Source: Methanocella arvoryzae MRE50 | GTDB taxonomy: Archaea; Halobacteriota; Methanocellia; Methanocellales; Methanocellaceae | NCBI RefSeq assembly: GCF_000063445.1 | Contig: NC_009464.1 | Coordinates: 1,612,001-1,676,000 of the forward strand | DNA: 64,000 bases | Direction: 5' to 3' | In this document: positions 2,694 to 60,848 of the stretch, in pieces | Layout: the number at the start of each line of letters is the position of its first letter | Numbering within the stretch: the stretch's first letter is position 1 | The notes under the pieces: generated by a model | Told to the model about the DNA's origin: nothing | What the model saw: the letters and a program-made list of their open reading frames with translations, nothing else | Database searches by the model: none | Made by a program: the position numbers and the translations under genes

Positions 2694-2811
2694 CATCTCA
2701 ATAAAATCTGGGCAAAATAAAAAACACAGGGGAGGATACCAGCGATTTTTTCCGCAGGCAGGGCCTGAATAAAGCGGCCTCAGGCCGGCTGATGCCGGCA
2801 GAATTTACTAT

Positions 2812-3066
2812 TAACCACAGAGACGCACAGAGTACGGTTTTACCACAGAGTCCACAGAGACGCACAGAGAAACGGTCAACCACAGAGACACAGAGATGCA
2901 CAGAGTTTTTTGATAGAAGGATGGCCTTATAACGAATAATAAAGAAAGCCTCTGTGCGTCTCTGTGCCTCTGTGGACTCTGTGGTAAATAGTACTCTGTG
3001 AACCTCTGTGCATCTCTGTGTCTCTGTGGTAACCAGTCGCTATGTGAGCCTCTGTGGTAAAAAGCC
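2812..3066. repeat. CACAGAG-family mirrored repeat element (largest copy)
   Basis: The left half holds about eight units of the type CACAGAG plus 2-4 nt (for example ACCACAGAGACGCACAGAG). An AT-rich spacer follows (about 2908-2945). The right half holds the same units in reverse complement (CTCTGTGCGTCTCTGTG). A transcript could fold into a long, slightly imperfect hairpin. It fills the gap between galT and the GH57 promoter. No convincing coding potential is seen: the open frames here are a by-product of the repeats. Confidence 0.85.
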
Positions 3067-4127: not shown

Positions 4128-4448
4128 AGAAAACCCAATAATACTAAAGCCCTCCGCGGGTCGACGCACGTACTTGCTTCGCCGCACATGCTCCTCGGGA
4201 TTTTCCGGTGCTCCGCCGTCGGGGCTGGTGGGAGGGGTGCCAAGCCCTTCGGCTCGAAGATCGCACCCTCGCAACGAAAACCCGGCAGGCGCTACGCTGC
4301 CGCCGGTCCACATTGCTTCGCAAGTCCTAAGCGACGCCACTTCGTAGGCGACGACTGTCGTGGGCAGTCGTCCATTACCCCGCGGCCTCCGCACCCCTCG
4401 CTAACGCTCGGGGCTATGCCAGAAAACCCCTCGCCGACCGCTAATAAA
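4128..4448 (+). repeat. Repeat X, copy 1, left boundary of the restriction island
   Basis: The stretch from about 4128 to 4448 recurs in reverse complement at 12236-12476. The best-matched part runs from about 4263 to 4393 and includes CGCAACGAAAACCCGGC and GCAAGTCCTAAGCGACGCCA. Both copies end in related inverted termini containing AGCGGTCGRCG-type sequence. Several short stems are visible, such as TTGCTTCGCAA and CGCC...GGCG. This copy also carries an extra perfect stem, GACGACTG/CAGTCGTC (about 4348-4371), that copy 2 lacks. No open frame is shared by both copies. It may be a MITE-like element or a structured RNA. Confidence 0.75.
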
Positions 4449-12235: not shown

Positions 12236-12476
12236 ACTAATAGCGGTCGACGGAGGTTTTTCGGGCTTGTCCGGCATCAGCCGGATGCGGAGGCGGCAGG
12301 GCAATGGACGCCTACGATAGTGGCGTCGCTTAGGACTTGCTAAGCAACGTAAACCGGCGGCTGCGTAGCGCCCGCCGGGTTTTCGTTGCGAGGGTGCGAG
12401 TCCGGCCCTGACGGCGTAGCACCCGAAAAACCGTAGTAGGACGCCTCTCAGGGCGGACGTCGACCCGCTAAGATGG
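12236..12476 (-). repeat. Repeat X, copy 2, right boundary of the restriction island
   Basis: This is the inverted partner of the element at 4128-4448. It starts one base after the hsdM stop with AATAGCGGTCGACGG and ends with GTCGACCCGCTAAG, so its own ends form imperfect terminal inverted repeats. Read on the minus strand, the core (about 12298-12395) contains CGCAACGAAAACCCGGC and GCAAGTCCTAAGCGACGCCA, as in copy 1. It lacks the extra 23-bp hairpin of copy 1. No gene is seen in it. Confidence 0.75.
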
Positions 12477-24082: not shown

Positions 24083-24175
24083 AAGCCTGTTGTACTACGG
24101 ATAGAGTATTAAAGCTGTTGATTTAGGGCAGACAATCTATTAGAATAACAGATAAACAAGTTGTCTCTATGCCAG

Positions 24176-24476
24176 TGAACGATAACGAACGCTGCGCTGT
24201 GCCAAACCACACAGATGCCACAGATTGAAACAGAATCCACAGATTACGATCGATTGCACAGATGACGCAGAATCTGATGATTCTGACCGATTCCACAGAT
24301 AATTAAAATGTTCTGATAGATTGTATTCTTATGATTGCTGTCGGTGATCTAATATTATCGTACTTACTCCATCTGTGATATCGTGTAATAATCTGTGGAT
24401 TCAGCAGAGAAATCTGTGGAATCAATCGGAATCTGTGGCATCTGTGAGGAATAGCACAGCGCAGCGTTCGTCTTGC
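24176..24476. repeat. ACAGATT-family (D) element, full copy 1
   Basis: Terminal inverted repeats ACGAACGCTGCGCTGTGCC (about 24185-24203) and GCACAGCGCAGCGTTCGTC (24454-24472) flank runs of CACAGAT(T) units. These are sense on the left and reverse complement on the right, around an AT-rich core. Read in reverse complement, the whole element including the core (ATCATAAGAATACAATCTATC) closely matches 51697-51966. It fills the space between the TPR gene and the duplicated-domain gene, both on the minus strand. Confidence 0.85.
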
Positions 24477-24503
24477 TTGCTATTGGAAGCCAATACAATC
24501 AGG

Positions 24504-33858: not shown

Positions 33859-33866
33859 GTCTACTC

Positions 33867-34495
33867 GGCCCCGGGAGGCCCCGATTTTAAATCGCGAGGG
33901 CGCAAAGATGCAAAGACGCTAAGCAGGCTGTCTCATAATTCATTGCGATTGCCTGTTAAGATAATCTGCTACCCACATGTACAATTGTATCCTTTCAGGA
34001 TGTTCGCCTTTTGAACGCCTGCCATGGCAGGCGTTCTCGAAGGCGATCCTCACACCATCGCTGCGCTGTGTGTTCTATGGTTGCCCGGGTTCAGTGAGAC
34101 AGCAAGACGATCGCTGCGCTGTGCTGGGACACAGATTTAACAGATTGTACAGATTGCACAGATGAACACAATAGATAAAACAGGTAAGGGTCGCTGTTAC
34201 CAGTCCGATTCGATGATCATCTGTGCAATCTGTATCATCTGTACAATCTGTGACCCTGGCACAGCGCAGCGATCGTCATCGCATCGCCCGCATCGGACGC
34301 CTGCCATGGCAGGCGGCCTGGCGGGCGAACATAGGGAATAAACATACGGATTCTCTAAAAAGGATACATATCTCCTTATTGTATAACGAACACGAATTAT
34401 GGGACAGCCCGTAAGTCGCAAAGTTTTATTGATATCTCCTGGCGCCTTTGCGACCTGGCGCCTTTGCGAACCAAGAACAAGGCGGCCTGGCGCCG
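33867..34495. repeat. Composite repeat: CGCAAAG-family ends enclosing a D-type element
   Basis: The left end carries GGCCCCGGGAGGCC and CGCAAAGATGCAAAGACG (33867-33925). The right end carries CCTTTGCGA units and AAGGCGGCCTGGCGCCG (about 34430-34495). Inside lie a D-type element at 34106-34277 (GACGATCGCTGCGCTGTGC with its mirrored partner, plus ACAGATT units) and two palindromes around CCTGCCATGGCAGG: a 24-bp perfect one at 34013-34036 and an 18-bp one at 34298-34315. The arrangement is that of a B element split by insertion of a D element. No gene is seen in 33859-34537. Confidence 0.75.
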
Positions 34496-34537
34496 AATAC
34501 CACTTCCATTTTCCTGCGAATAATGCTATTACTCACA

Positions 34538-36179: not shown

Positions 36180-36392
36180 TCCACCACACAGGGCACAGCG
36201 CGCTTGTTTTACCACAGAGGCACAGAGACGCACAGAGAACGGTTCACCACAGAGTCACAGAGACGCACAGAGATTTACTTAATAAGTGATTACTATCAGA
36301 TGATCTATAGAAAAACCTCTGTGCGTCTCTGTGTTCTCTGTGCCTCTGTGGTAAAACCTCTGTGCGTCTCTGTGTTCTCTGTGGTGAATTAC
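36180..36392. repeat. CACAGAG-family mirrored repeat element
   Basis: Units such as ACCACAGAGGCACAGAGACG run from about 36211 to 36271. A spacer of about 45 nt follows, then mirrored units (CCTCTGTGCGTCTCTGTG) from about 36316 to 36390. The preceding GGGCACAGCGCGCTTG resembles a decayed D terminus. It separates the desulfidase gene from the convergent LLM gene. No coding content is seen. Confidence 0.85.
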
Positions 36393-43770: not shown

Positions 43771-43867
43771 GGTTACCACAGAGGCACAGAGGAACACAGA
43801 GATCTAATGAAATATGGCCAATTATAAGATATATCTCTGTGTACCTCTGTGCCTCTGTGGTAAACCA
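43771..43867. repeat. CACAGAG-family element, compact copy
   Basis: This is the clearest hairpin of the family. TTACCACAGAGGCACAGAGG and ACACAGAGAT on the left are mirrored by ATCTCTGTGT, then CTCTGTGCCTCTGTGGTAA, on the right, with about 30 nt of AT-rich loop (about 43806-43835). It sits between two convergent genes (stops at 43752 and 43901), so it could also end transcription from both sides. Confidence 0.88.
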
Positions 43868-51570: not shown

Positions 51571-51584
51571 CGATAATGTGAGAC

Positions 51585-52125
51585 AGCAAGACGAACGCTG
51601 CGCTGTGCCTCACCTGATTGCACAACATCCCCAAGATAGCAGAGCGAACGCTGCACTGCGCCTTACTTGATTGTTTAAGCTTCACGAGACAGCAAAACGA
51701 ACGCTGCGCTGTGCCAATCCTCACAGATTCCACGGATTGCGATTGATTCCACAGATTCCTCTGCTGAATCCACAGATTACTACACGATATCACAGAAGGA
51801 ATACTCTAATACTATTCGAACACTAATAGCAATCATAAGAATACAATCGATCAGAACATTTTTAATTATCTGTGAAATCGAGCGTCATCTGTGCAATCGG
51901 TCGTAATCTGTGGATTCTGTTTCAATCTGTGGCATCTGTGTAGTTTAGCACAGCGCAGCGTTCGACATGCTATCTCACCACACAGGAGCAACCAGAAAAC
52001 GCACAGCGCAGCGTTCGTCATCGTTCACGGGCACAGAGACAACATATTATCGAGAGCCGGAGTAATCAGAAGCCAGCACAGTACCGCATTCGTAATCGTT
52101 CACCTGCACAGAGATAATAGCTATA
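51585..52125. repeat. ACAGATT-family (D) element, full copy 2, with extra nested ends
   Basis: The inner element (51697-51966) is an inverted, close copy of 24176-24476: the same ACGAACGCTGCGCTGTGCC ends, the same ACAGATTCC/AATCTGTGG unit order and the same core. Further ends lie outside: GACGAACGCTGCGCTGTGCC (51590-51609) and GCGAACGCTGCACTGCGCC (about 51643-51661) on the left, and GCACAGCGCAGCGTTCGTC (about 52001-52019) and GCACAGTACCGCATTCG (about 52077-52093) on the right. The gap 51571-52210 holds no gene. A short TATA-like stretch precedes hef. Confidence 0.85.
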
Positions 52126-54599: not shown

Positions 54600-55615
54600 A
54601 GGATTCCAACCTGGTTTCGGCGCCAGGCCGCCTCGTATTTAGTTCGCAAAAAATCAGGTGATGATCGGAGCCTTGATCAGGCATAGGTGATGAAAAACTG
54701 GCGGTTCTCAGTTTCTGCGCTAGTAAAGCCGCCAAGCACTCGCCTCATGAAAACTGGTTTTTCAAGTAAAGCCGATGAAAAACTCCTGGAGGTTGGGGAG
54801 TTCCCGGGAGGTCTAGGAGGATTTTCAGGCTGGGAGGTTGGGGAGGGTGGAGAGGTCTGAGAGGAGGATTGGGAGTGTGGAAAGGTTTGGGAGGATTTTT
54901 TAAAGATATTCTCTCTGACCTCCGGGTACTTACATAACCTCCTCTCTGACCTCCATGACCTCCTTGACCTCCCAGCTTGAACGTTCTCTCTATACTCCGT
55001 GAACCTCTCCGACCTCCCCTCCGACCTCTCAACACCTCCCGGACCCAGATTTTTCATGGAACGCCAAGGGGCCAAGCTCGCCAAGGGGCCAAGCACTCGC
55101 TAATGAAAGGTGTGTTTTCAAGTAGAGGAATTGAAAAATAGAAATAGCTCGGCCCCGGGAGGCCTCGGTTTTAAATCGCAATCAGCACGGTTCGACCCTT
55201 CGGTCGCGACGGCGCAACGACGCAAAGACGCCAAGTTTTTCCTGTTATTCCTTTGCGTCGTTGCGCCCTTGCGCCTTAGCGATCTAAGAACAAGGCGGCC
55301 TGGCGCCGACGATATCCATATTTTTCATAGAACGCCAAGTAGCCAAGCACGCCAAGCTATAATTTTATTGATCGGCGCTGTTCCGATCGAAAAAGTCCCT
55401 GGCGTGCCCGGCCTCTTGGCGTTCCGTGAAAAATTAGCTCTTGGCGAGCTTGGCACCTTGGCGCTCTTGGCGGTATTTTCGACTCACACAGGGCCAACTT
55501 ACAATTTTTCACAGCTTCTACCTGAATATCCATTTTTCATAAGGCGAGTGCTTGGCGACCTTGCGTCTTTGCGCCCTTGCGAACTAAAATCAATAAATCG
55601 AGCGTTTACGGTTTA
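54600..55615. repeat. 1-kb mosaic of several mirrored repeat families
   Basis: In order: an inverted CGCAAAG-type end (TTCGGCGCCAGGCCGCC, about 54616-54632); CGCCAAG units with GCACTCGCCTCATGAAAA; a GGAGGT family block (54784-55046) with GGAGGTTGGGGAG on the left and mirrored TGACCTCC units on the right; more CGCCAAG units (55060-55105); a complete CGCAAAG-type element (55150-55309); and CGCCAAG units both ways (55325-55470). A module (55460-55560) recurs inverted at about 60455-60560, and a last CGCAAAG half lies at 55560-55590. Reading frames here are repeat artefacts; no gene is seen. Confidence 0.8.
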
Positions 55616-58768: not shown

Positions 58769-58796
58769 GCTCGTGATATTTTAGAACTACAAAGGC

Positions 58797-58881
58797 TCAC
58801 AGGGACTTACATATTAGATGGTCGCTATCCAATCGTCTATAGAAATATCTCTGTGCGTCTCTGTGCCTCTGTGGTGACCAG
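58797..58881. repeat. CACAGAG-family element, partly decayed
   Basis: The right arm CTCTGTGCGTCTCTGTGCC (about 58849-58867) is intact. The left arm (GGCTCACAGGGACTTACAT) is degenerate. The ISL3-family insertion sequence begins a few bases after the right arm. Confidence 0.6.
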
Positions 58882-58892
58882 TAGATATTTTT

Positions 58893-60205
58893 GGCTCTTC
58901 TCCATTTTTAGGATGAGGGTTTCCGGCAGATTGTTAATATTTTAAGCATAAAATACTCCAGGTCCTGGAGGCCGTAACTTCTTCTTTTGATGATATTGAT
59001 CTTGGTGTTGAAACCTTCGCTACCGGCATTAGTGATATGATGTTTGAAGAGGGCGGTCACACCGTACATGTAACGATCCAATGTCCTTACCAGAGCTTGG
59101 AACTCCTCCAATCCGCTACTCTCCACGTTCTCTTTCCATGTCTGCAACCGGAGCATTGCATGGTTCTGATATCGGGCGTCCAGGATGTCCAGGAGTTGTT
59201 CTTTCAACAGGTATGCCTTGTACAAGGGTTGGTTCAGCTCCAATAGTTCCTGAAGAGTCTCCCTCTTTTCACTGGGGAGGTTCTTCTCTCTGCTGAGGAT
59301 GAGAAACCGTTTATCCTTCCAGTGTTTTCGTTCAGCTTTGCCTGCACCCCTGAATTCTCGTCTACGGATACTGTCTATGCATTCCCCTGCTTTCTTAGCG
59401 ATATGGAACTTATCGAACACGATCTCCGCCCTCGTGTTTTTACGGACGCTGGCAATATATGGATCCCACATATCCATGACCACCGCTTTAACGTTCATGC
59501 TTTTCTCGTATCCTAGAATGGCGAAGAACAGGTCGAGTGTCACCTCTTTTCTCCCAATGCCCGTCCAGAGAACACAGCCCTTTTCAACATCCCGGACTAC
59601 TGTGAGGTATTTATGGCCTTTCTCATAAGCGATCTCATCCACGCCGATCACCCGGGGATTACTGGAATCCAACGGGACAAGGGATTCTCTCATCGTATTC
59701 TTATCAATACTCTTCACAGTCTTCCAGTCTAACCCTACGACCTGGGCGGCTTCTTTAATGCTCATATGCTTACAGAGAACCGAGACATGCTTTTCCAGTC
59801 TCTTCGTGCATCTCGAGTACTCCCTTACAAACTCCAGTTTCTCATGACCCCTGTGGCCACACCGGCAAAAGATCTTGTATTGAGGGAACTGCACATAACA
59901 ACGCAGACACCCCAAATCCAGGTCCCTGACCACTCGGACATACTCATCCTCAACACGTTTAACACGCCTGCCACAACGAGGACACAGAGAAGGCCTCCCT
60001 GATCTCTCTAACTCGACAAGAAGCCGTTCATCATCATGACTGATACCAGCAATCTTAAATCCCTTAAAATTAAACTGGCTCTTGAATACTAACGAGTATT
60101 TACACCGCTTACCCATGATATTGTGCCAACATTACAAGGGCAAGCGGTGGCTTAAAATCACCCATTACAACTAGCAGTTCCTCACCCGACAATCGGAGAA
60201 GAGCC
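58893..60205 (-). mobile_element. ISL3-family insertion sequence, complete, with 8-bp target duplication
   Basis: The ends match: GGCTCTTCTCC at 58893-58903, and the same sequence in reverse complement (GGAGAAGAGCC) at 60195-60205. Similarity continues inward (AGGATGAGG versus CGGGTGAGG). The direct repeat ATATTTTT flanks both sides (58885-58892 and 60206-60213), the usual 8-bp duplication of the family. Total length is 1313 bp. With intact ends, duplication and transposase it is a recent and possibly active insertion. Confidence 0.9.
58908..60116 (-). CDS. ISL3-family transposase
   Basis: The 402-residue protein has N-terminal zinc-binding cysteines (CPRCGRR at 45-51, CLRC at 70-73, CRCGHRGHE near 84) and a helix-turn-helix (SIKEAAQVVGLDWKTVKSID, 119-138). 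The DDE nuclease follows: D160 in VIGVDEIAY, D215 in AVVMDMWDPY, then E367 in NAGSEGFNTK. NAGSEGFNTKI is diagnostic for ISL3. The reading frame is intact. Codon use resembles a lower-GC source than its neighbours. It occupies almost the whole insertion sequence. Confidence 0.93.
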   Translation of the reverse strand: MGKRCKYSLVFKSQFNFKGFKIAGISHDDERLLVELERSGRPSLCPRCGRRVKRVEDEYVRVVRDLDLGCLRCYVQFPQYKIFCRCGHRGHEKLEFVREYSRCTKRLEKHVSVLCKHMSIKEAAQVVGLDWKTVKSIDKNTMRESLVPLDSSNPRVIGVDEIAYEKGHKYLTVVRDVEKGCVLWTGIGRKEVTLDLFFAILGYEKSMNVKAVVMDMWDPYIASVRKNTRAEIVFDKFHIAKKAGECIDSIRRREFRGAGKAERKHWKDKRFLILSREKNLPSEKRETLQELLELNQPLYKAYLLKEQLLDILDARYQNHAMLRLQTWKENVESSGLEEFQALVRTLDRYMYGVTALFKHHITNAGSEGFNTKINIIKRRSYGLQDLEYFMLKILTICRKPSS

Positions 60206-60394: not shown

Positions 60395-60740
60395 AAAAGG
60401 GTATTGTCAAGTAGGGGTACGAAAAATTGAAAGTAGCCCTGAATAGGTCGAAAATACCGCCAAGCACTCGCCTTATGAAAAATGTGGTATTCAGGTAGAG
60501 GCTATGAAAAATTAATAGTTGGCCCTGTGTGAGTCGAAAATACCGCCAAGTCCGCCAAGGAGCCAAGAGCGCCAAGAGCTAATTTTTCATGGAACGCCAA
60601 GAAGCCAAGCTCGCCAAGAGCAAATTTTTTCATGGAACGCCAAGGAGCCAAGAGCGCCAAGATTTTTTGGCGATATCTTCTGATCCTGATCACAATGTCC
60701 TTGGCGAGCTTGGCCTCTTGGCGGGCTTGGCGGCCTTATA
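60395..60740. repeat. CGCCAAG-family mirrored repeat element
   Basis: Left part: CCGCCAAGCACTCGCC, then CGCCAAGTCCGCCAAGGAGC and two further blocks (AACGCCAAGAAGCCAAGC; AACGCCAAGGAGCCAAG). Right part (about 60699-60738): CCTTGGCGAGCTTGGCC, then CTTGGCGGGCTTGGCGG. A short module (about 60455-60560, with GTAGAGGCTATGAAAAATT) recurs inverted at 55460-55560. No coding content is seen in 60206-60859. Confidence 0.8.
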
Positions 60741-60774: not shown

Positions 60775-60848
60775 ATACTCTGTGAACCTCTGTGCGTCTC
60801 CGTGCCTCTGTGGTAAAATCTCCGTGCGTCTCTGTGGTAAATTATTAG
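60775..60848. repeat. CACAGAG-family element, right half only
   Basis: Only mirrored units are present: CTCTGTGAACCTCTGTGCG, TCTCCGTGCCTCTGTGGTA, then CCGTGCGTCTCTGTGGTA. The corresponding left half is missing. The array lies just after the stop of the DUF72 gene, so it may be a truncated element. Confidence 0.7.

Follow-up and report, generated by a model that had tools for sequence, protein, structure and literature searches.

Two inverted near-copies in the genome of Methanocella arvoryzae MRE50 belong to a family of palindromic elements, here named D, which comprises roughly a hundred scattered copies; one irregular copy among them has an intact gene of the GxxExxY family between its ends. 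This arrangement, in which long inverted repeats made up of short repeats enclose a single GxxExxY gene, recurs in archaea and bacteria and is not specific to D. We give roughly even credence to the reading that the D copies described here are the gene-less form of a palindromic mobile element that encodes GxxExxY, with the palindrome plus a nuclease as its basic mobile unit.

Two palindromic near-copies in opposite orientation

The analyzed stretch of DNA (here referred to as the window) has a length of 64,000 nucleotides and contains two D elements of 285 bp (copy 1) and 267 bp (copy 2), whose refined coordinates are given in Table 1. Alignment from TIR to TIR in reverse complement yielded 287 columns with 243 identical positions and 22 gap columns, i.e., an identity of 91.7% of aligned columns from end to end. 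The loop region (~24305 to 24358) was 87% identical on its own, and there was no drop of identity in the core. This confirms the preliminary description of the pair, made from the DNA letters alone, as near-copies in opposite orientation that match along their ends, repeat units, and nonrepetitive core. Duplicated flanks, named there as a sign of segmental duplication, were not observed when 300 bp outside the elements were compared: the sole match on one side was 33 bp of element end sequence, which in copy 2 is displaced outward by one half-unit, and the opposite side gave a match of 19 bp.

The TIR of 17 bp (CGAACGCTGCGCTGTGC) is present with 0 mismatches at all four ends of the two copies. 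The region enclosed by the TIRs consists of a short loop and, in opposite orientation on its two sides, arms of degenerate ACAGATT-like repeats. Folding of copy 1 as single-stranded DNA (24165 to 24485) gave -75.1 kcal/mol (z = -10.5), and 0 of 100 shuffled sequences folded as well. Across the window, 11 matches to the TIR were found at up to 3 mismatches, compared to 0.35 expected, which greatly exceeds chance. Both copies are located between ORFs and not within a 23S rRNA gene; a search of the window against Rfam found tRNA alone and no Rfam family for D.

Table 1. Positions of D elements and their outer units in the window
Feature	Position	Strand	Basis
D copy 1, imperfect palindrome, TIR to TIR	24186..24470	+	Alignment; DNA fold
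Left 17-bp TIR (CGAACGCTGCGCTGTGC) of D copy 1	24186..24202	+	0 mismatches
Right 17-bp TIR of D copy 1	24454..24470	-	0 mismatches
B-type outer end (...GTTGTCTCTATGCCAGTGAACGATAA), common to the outer unit of copy 2	24155..24185	+	Pairwise match
D copy 2, TIR to TIR, 267 bp	51698..51964	-	Alignment
Two outer TIR half-units with 53-bp spacing, low side of copy 2 (51592-51608, 51645-51661)	51592..51661	+	TIR match; TRF period 53 at 51580-51715
Outer TIR half-units, high side of copy 2 (52001-52017; a degenerate one at ~52076-52092)	52001..52092	-	TIR match
Third, more diverged D copy of the CGATCG subfamily (TIRs 34108-34124, 34259-34275; outer TIR 34055-34071)	~34055..34275	+	Nested between other palindromes

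Several other repeats were seen in the window. Palindromes of the CACAGAG type, which contain no gene in the window, are located at 2804 to 3057, 36209 to 36383, 43773 to 43863, 58789 to 58882, and 60776 to 60841. Palindromes of the CGCCAAG type, a repeat also present on both sides of a GxxExxY gene at another genomic locus (L163), are located at 55049 to 55562 and 60422 to 60662. An ISL3-type IS at 58893 to 60205, with a 402-amino-acid transposase (PF01610) and a perfect 8-bp duplication (ATATTTTT), has a CACAGAG palindrome on one side and a TACACGAAG element on the other. At 33866 to 34500, palindromes are nested, with CGGCCCCGGGAGGCC / CGCAAAG outside, followed by GCCTGCCATGGCAGGC hairpins and D innermost. 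An 81-bp inverted near-copy of 93% identity, 8 kb apart at 4261 to 4341 and 12319 to 12399, is not D.

A dispersed and mosaic family

A blastn search of the M. arvoryzae genome (3,179,916 bp) with copy 1 produced 127 matches, and the best 40 of 106 candidate places were scored. The TIR occurs 128 times in forward and 128 times in reverse orientation across the whole genome at up to 2 mismatches, while the reversed control pattern gave 0 and 0. A paired TIR was present in 66 of the 75 D loci read, and the cores of 28 aligned copies have TIRs, arms, and loop in common. The many copies and their unrelated flanks support the earlier suggestion that an entire noncoding element was copied. Outside the species, D gave no match in any of three other genomes of the same taxonomic family, and the exact TIR was found in 64 stretches of the GTDB contig collection (possibly excluding records near the M. 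arvoryzae genome) with one match each, which is chance-like.

D is not one fixed unit. Many copies carry extra outer half-units of 53 bp (A type) or 73 to 76 bp (B type), each ending in a TIR, which occur on either side of the element with up to six in tandem, and this looks like the outcome of local recombination or slippage. At ~526.9 to 527.5 kb (L016/L078), six almost identical 75-bp half-units adjoin one D copy in tandem, apparently a recent expansion. Nesting with other palindromes and MITEs was seen for some D copies, and interruption of the D copy itself for some. Other palindrome families (CGCAAAG/CGCCAAG and GGAGGTC) were seen as nested insertions inside D end pairs at 1994 kb (L060) and 1135 kb (L048). 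In addition, four near-identical copies of a 1393-bp IS at ~238, 951, 1860, and 2123 kb (L143, L144, L146, and L147), which were found via D and represent D-associated copies, all lie inside D palindromes; this IS encodes a DDE_Tnp_1 transposase of 373 amino acids and is flanked by 5-bp direct repeats (GATTA, ATTTA, and GAATC) at three of the four copies.

The target-site duplications for which a check had been proposed were not found at D ends beyond the cross-pair level in 66 loci: the longest shared direct word reached at least 8 at 17 of the 66, compared to ~20% of cross-pairs. Since D arms are 80 to 90% identical, old target duplications could have decayed or their position been misjudged. 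Three recent D copies that are 98.8% identical (L042, L044, and L058) lie between TATAGT...ACTATA ends inside TACACGAAG arrays. Judged by eye, removal of the insert together with one TA restores the TACACGAAG host array, as is also the case at L320 and as would be expected of an element that duplicates TA. TATAGT ends are absent from the window copies. In 13 stretches, visual inspection of the ORFs of 120 amino acids or more recognized no transposase gene adjoining TATAGT ends.

An intact GxxExxY gene between D ends

The genome contains three full genes and one remnant matching PF13366 (PDDEXK_3). One intact gene, encoding 133 amino acids, is located between D ends at ~1.9378 to 1.9388 Mb (L161; D locus L149). 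The order of this irregular D copy is TIR, complete D palindrome, gene, second right arm, and TIR, and pairing between its outer arms reaches 80% over 128 columns. A second gene (L163) is enclosed by the two arms of a CGCCAAG palindrome, whereas L164, the remnant, adjoins CGCCAAG-type repeats, as judged by eye; the third gene (L162) has no flanking inverted repeats. The preliminary description had advised looking for a transposase gene with matching inverted ends. A gene in this position does exist at 1.938 Mb and encodes a predicted nuclease, but the D loci examined yielded no classical transposase between the ends, and among the TIR places read GxxExxY alone was seen there. A putative gene remnant in the D loop, considered by eye, was rejected on account of its unsuitable strand and position.

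The L161 protein scored 140.3 bits against TIGR04256 (cutoff, 35) and 144.8 bits against PF13366 (cutoff, 22). Its D...ExK catalytic pattern is intact, with D77 and K89 invariant and E87 nearly so in an alignment of 61 sequences. The predicted structure, a confident model (mean pLDDT, 95.1), has an alpha-beta core resembling PD-(D/E)XK enzymes. Its best solved structural match is 4ic1 (SSO0001; Z, 9.5; rmsd, 4.3; 100 aligned), which we take to be a Cas4. The archaeal Hjc Holliday junction resolvase 1gef reached a Z of 6.9 and was tied with many others, which does not prove a junction resolvase role. The loop protein is a predicted PD-(D/E)XK nuclease. The two open-access papers found to name the curated family describe no role for GxxExxY.

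GxxExxY and S23p genes between inverted repeats in other genomes

Matches to GxxExxY numbered more than 100, were spread over 41 of the 246 genomes, and included many short fragments. For the flank test, the best inverted repeat between the upstream and downstream flanks of a gene was scored, with a score of at least 45 taken as positive, and control ORFs were drawn from the same loci away from the gene (for the archaeal set, with a central block excluded). The archaeal set, from the phylum of M. arvoryzae, consisted of 52 loci (L161 to L163 and L165 to L213), and 45 genes were retained after L171 (stop inside) and L187, L188, L189, L190, L191, and L193 (partial) were dropped. Inverted repeats flanked 21 of the 45 genes at 250-bp flanks and 23 at 500 bp, with positives in 9 genomes of three families, and none of 69 control ORFs was positive (maximum, 42). 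In one archaeal family (f6), 0 of 18 GxxExxY genes had flanking inverted repeats; together with L162, this indicates that the gene also exists outside palindromes. Genomes of the same family, e.g., G183 and G203, contain many truncated GxxExxY fragments (13 and 11 matches, respectively), and matches in G178, G213, G193, and G173 lie in open frames of 386 to 398 amino acids, possibly fusions.

In bacteria, 10 of 42 genomes have the gene. Thirty loci were collected, of which L228 (stop inside) and L223, L229, L230, and L243 (partial) were dropped, and 7 of the remaining 25 genes were positive, six of them independent since L238 and L241 represent the same tandem region. S23p genes (PF05635, the type found in 23S rRNA intervening sequences [IVSs]) were positive in 5 of 29 cases, and 13 of 29 scored above all shuffles (30 loci; L269 dropped for a short flank). 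The control ORFs for the bacterial and S23p tests gave 0 of 81 (maximum, 25). The palindrome arms around these genes are built from differing short repeats, including CACAGAG, CGCGAAG, CACGAAG, CGCCAAG, CACGGAA, CGCGAAT, and others.

Copying with and without target duplication in a sister genus

In the genome of a member of the sister genus (G001; 2,957,635 bp), one arm flanking a GxxExxY gene has 77 matches, and 3 gene-bearing places were present among the best 40 of 92 candidates, which were scored. A 17-nucleotide word directly 5' of the gene in these three copies was retained, with no more than 3 mismatches (shuffles, 5 to 8), by all 36 gene-less loci. Many gene-less copies have the outer ends GGTTCTTGTGCGTTTTTGGGAT and GACTCTTC(C/T)GCGGTTTTGGGAT. 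Of 39 loci examined for target duplications, 22 exceeded the end-score threshold at both outer ends; 15 of these 22 had a duplication matching at 8 of 8 positions and 19 at 7 or more, compared to 7 and 61, respectively, of 462 cross-pairs. Gene-less palindromes of this genome were transposed with an 8-bp duplication. ISL3 copies of M. arvoryzae have ends (GGTTCTTCTCCCTGTTTGGGAT) that resemble those of the sister genus, together with 8-bp duplications; no ISL3 transposase (PF01610) was found in G001. One gene-bearing palindrome (L203) retains MITE ends in degenerate form, so that the gene and DDE-type ends can travel together. Two further gene-bearing palindromes with another arm type (L205 and L206) are 98.75% identical over 641 bp and have sharp ends, unrelated flanks, and no target duplication. 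This 641-bp unit, gene included, was recently copied without target duplication.

Discussion

D is dispersed in the genome, and GxxExxY and S23p genes are associated with palindromes. The preliminary description held that an enzyme or recombination must mobilize the element; copying is borne out, but "must" is too strong for any single enzyme. We infer that GxxExxY itself moves D. In the mechanism we propose, a palindrome and the nuclease encoded in its loop would form the basic mobile unit. The nuclease would recognize the extruded hairpin or cruciform and make a cut that allows the palindrome to be copied, and it could act in trans on gene-less copies as well, such as those in the window. 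Gene-less copies would then depend for their movement on the nuclease or on DDE transposases. A second, partly demonstrated route would be hitchhiking inside MITEs moved by DDE transposases, as indicated by the 8-bp duplications in the sister genus and the TA-flanked MITEs in M. arvoryzae. The well-proven transposition, i.e., that with 8-bp duplications, points to a DDE transposase and not to GxxExxY.

It is a real possibility, if one we rate somewhat below even, that GxxExxY is a passenger gene and that D, like its relatives, is an ordinary MITE for which DDE transposases acting in trans provide mobility by recognizing outer terminal repeats. The duplications in the sister genus (8 of 8 positions in 15 and at least 7 in 19 of 22 palindromes, against 7 of 462 cross-pairs for 8 of 8), the likeness of GGTTCTTGTGCGTTTTTGGGAT to the ISL3 ends GGTTCTTCTCCCTGTTTGGGAT with their own 8-bp duplications, and the TATAGT-ended copies, whose removal with one TA restores the array, all fit such an origin. 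It accounts less well for the window copies, which have no TATAGT ends, for the 66 D loci without duplication beyond the cross-pair level, and for the gene-bearing L205/L206 unit, which moved without duplication; moreover, the ISL3 transposase was not found in G001, and what accompanies the gene constantly from genome to genome is the palindrome and not a terminal repeat of any kind.

Recombination does act on D, as the tandem outer half-units demonstrate (e.g., six 75-bp units at L016), and segmental duplication or ectopic gene conversion between preexisting palindromes might be invoked. With unrelated flanks, whole cores including the loop common to 28 aligned copies, and the inability of conversion to place a first copy at a new site, we consider this improbable. 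A REP/BIME-like repeat spread by a Y1 HUH (RAYT) transposase would also be intergenic, palindromic, high in copy number, mosaic, and nested, but PF01797 has 0 matches in M. arvoryzae and 0 in G001 (1 each in G002 and G003), and D is ~10 times the size of a REP. This origin is contradicted for the present genomes, and we regard it as very improbable even allowing for a possible loss of the enzyme. Slippage or template switching that expanded simple repeats independently at each site, against which the preliminary description had already argued, would produce imperfect palindromes with arms of short degenerate repeats such as those of D; it is contradicted by the nonrepetitive TIR and loop sequence common to the copies and hardly deserves credence.

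MITEs, IVSs, and hairpin-targeted transposition are already known. Like the MITEs portrayed in a review (PMC10969869), D is short, gene-less, dispersed, and present in high copy number with inverted ends, and the palindromes of the sister genus also have TIRs and 8-bp target duplications. D differs from these MITEs in having no target duplication and in its middle, where short repeats form a long palindrome; in some copies this palindrome holds GxxExxY instead of a transposase gene. IVSs of 23S rRNA, such as the 428-nucleotide IVS of Coxiella, are described in PMC4990558 as selfish elements of unclear origin with inverted-repeat ends and one small S23p ORF, preceded in Coxiella by the heptamer repeats GACAGAT. 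Short tandem repeats and a single small ORF enclosed by inverted ends are likewise found in D at L149 and in the CGCCAAG palindrome at L163, and S23p-family genes elsewhere also lie in short-repeat palindromes (5 of 29). In contrast to IVSs, D is intergenic and not located in rRNA, and its gene is GxxExxY; S23p genes (PF05635) gave 0 matches in the four Methanocellaceae genomes searched (G000 to G003). The inverted-repeat-replacing transposition of IS1272, as outlined in PMC5678879, offers a precedent for hairpin-targeted movement without target duplication, but IS1272 is an IS that encodes a transposase, a gene not seen between the ends of the D loci examined. REP/BIME sequences with RAYT resemble D as intergenic palindromes in mosaic arrays, whereas D is much larger and its genome has no Y1 transposase. 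Eukaryotic Foldback-type elements have very long inverted repeats composed of short tandem repeats, as does D, which resides in another host domain; we know of no sequence shared between the two.

A search of open-access papers found none that links GxxExxY to palindromes or describes it in the loop of a palindromic element from which gene-less derivatives arise, and none on S23p together with palindromes. A broader proposal, which we put forward tentatively and consider rather doubtful, is that GxxExxY is the mobility enzyme of a widespread and unnamed class of palindromic transposons of archaea and bacteria that move without target duplication. Its PD-(D/E)XK loop nuclease would be structure specific and act on its own hairpin or cruciform, would move both gene-bearing and gene-less palindromes including D, and would favor insertion near palindromes, giving rise to nested arrays; the S23p-containing IVSs of 23S rRNA would represent a sister branch whose loop gene is a different one. 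The reading of GxxExxY palindromes as mobile units is directly testable, as L205 and L206 are 98.75% identical in one complete genome.

Tying GxxExxY to palindromes gives this protein family a testable function. The link also offers an origin for intergenic repeats of the CACAGAG, CACGAAG, and CGCCAAG types at the archaeal and bacterial loci described here and connects them with the intervening sequences of 23S rRNA. Our findings suggest that D and its relatives of the same build in other microbes are a little-noticed kind of mobile DNA.
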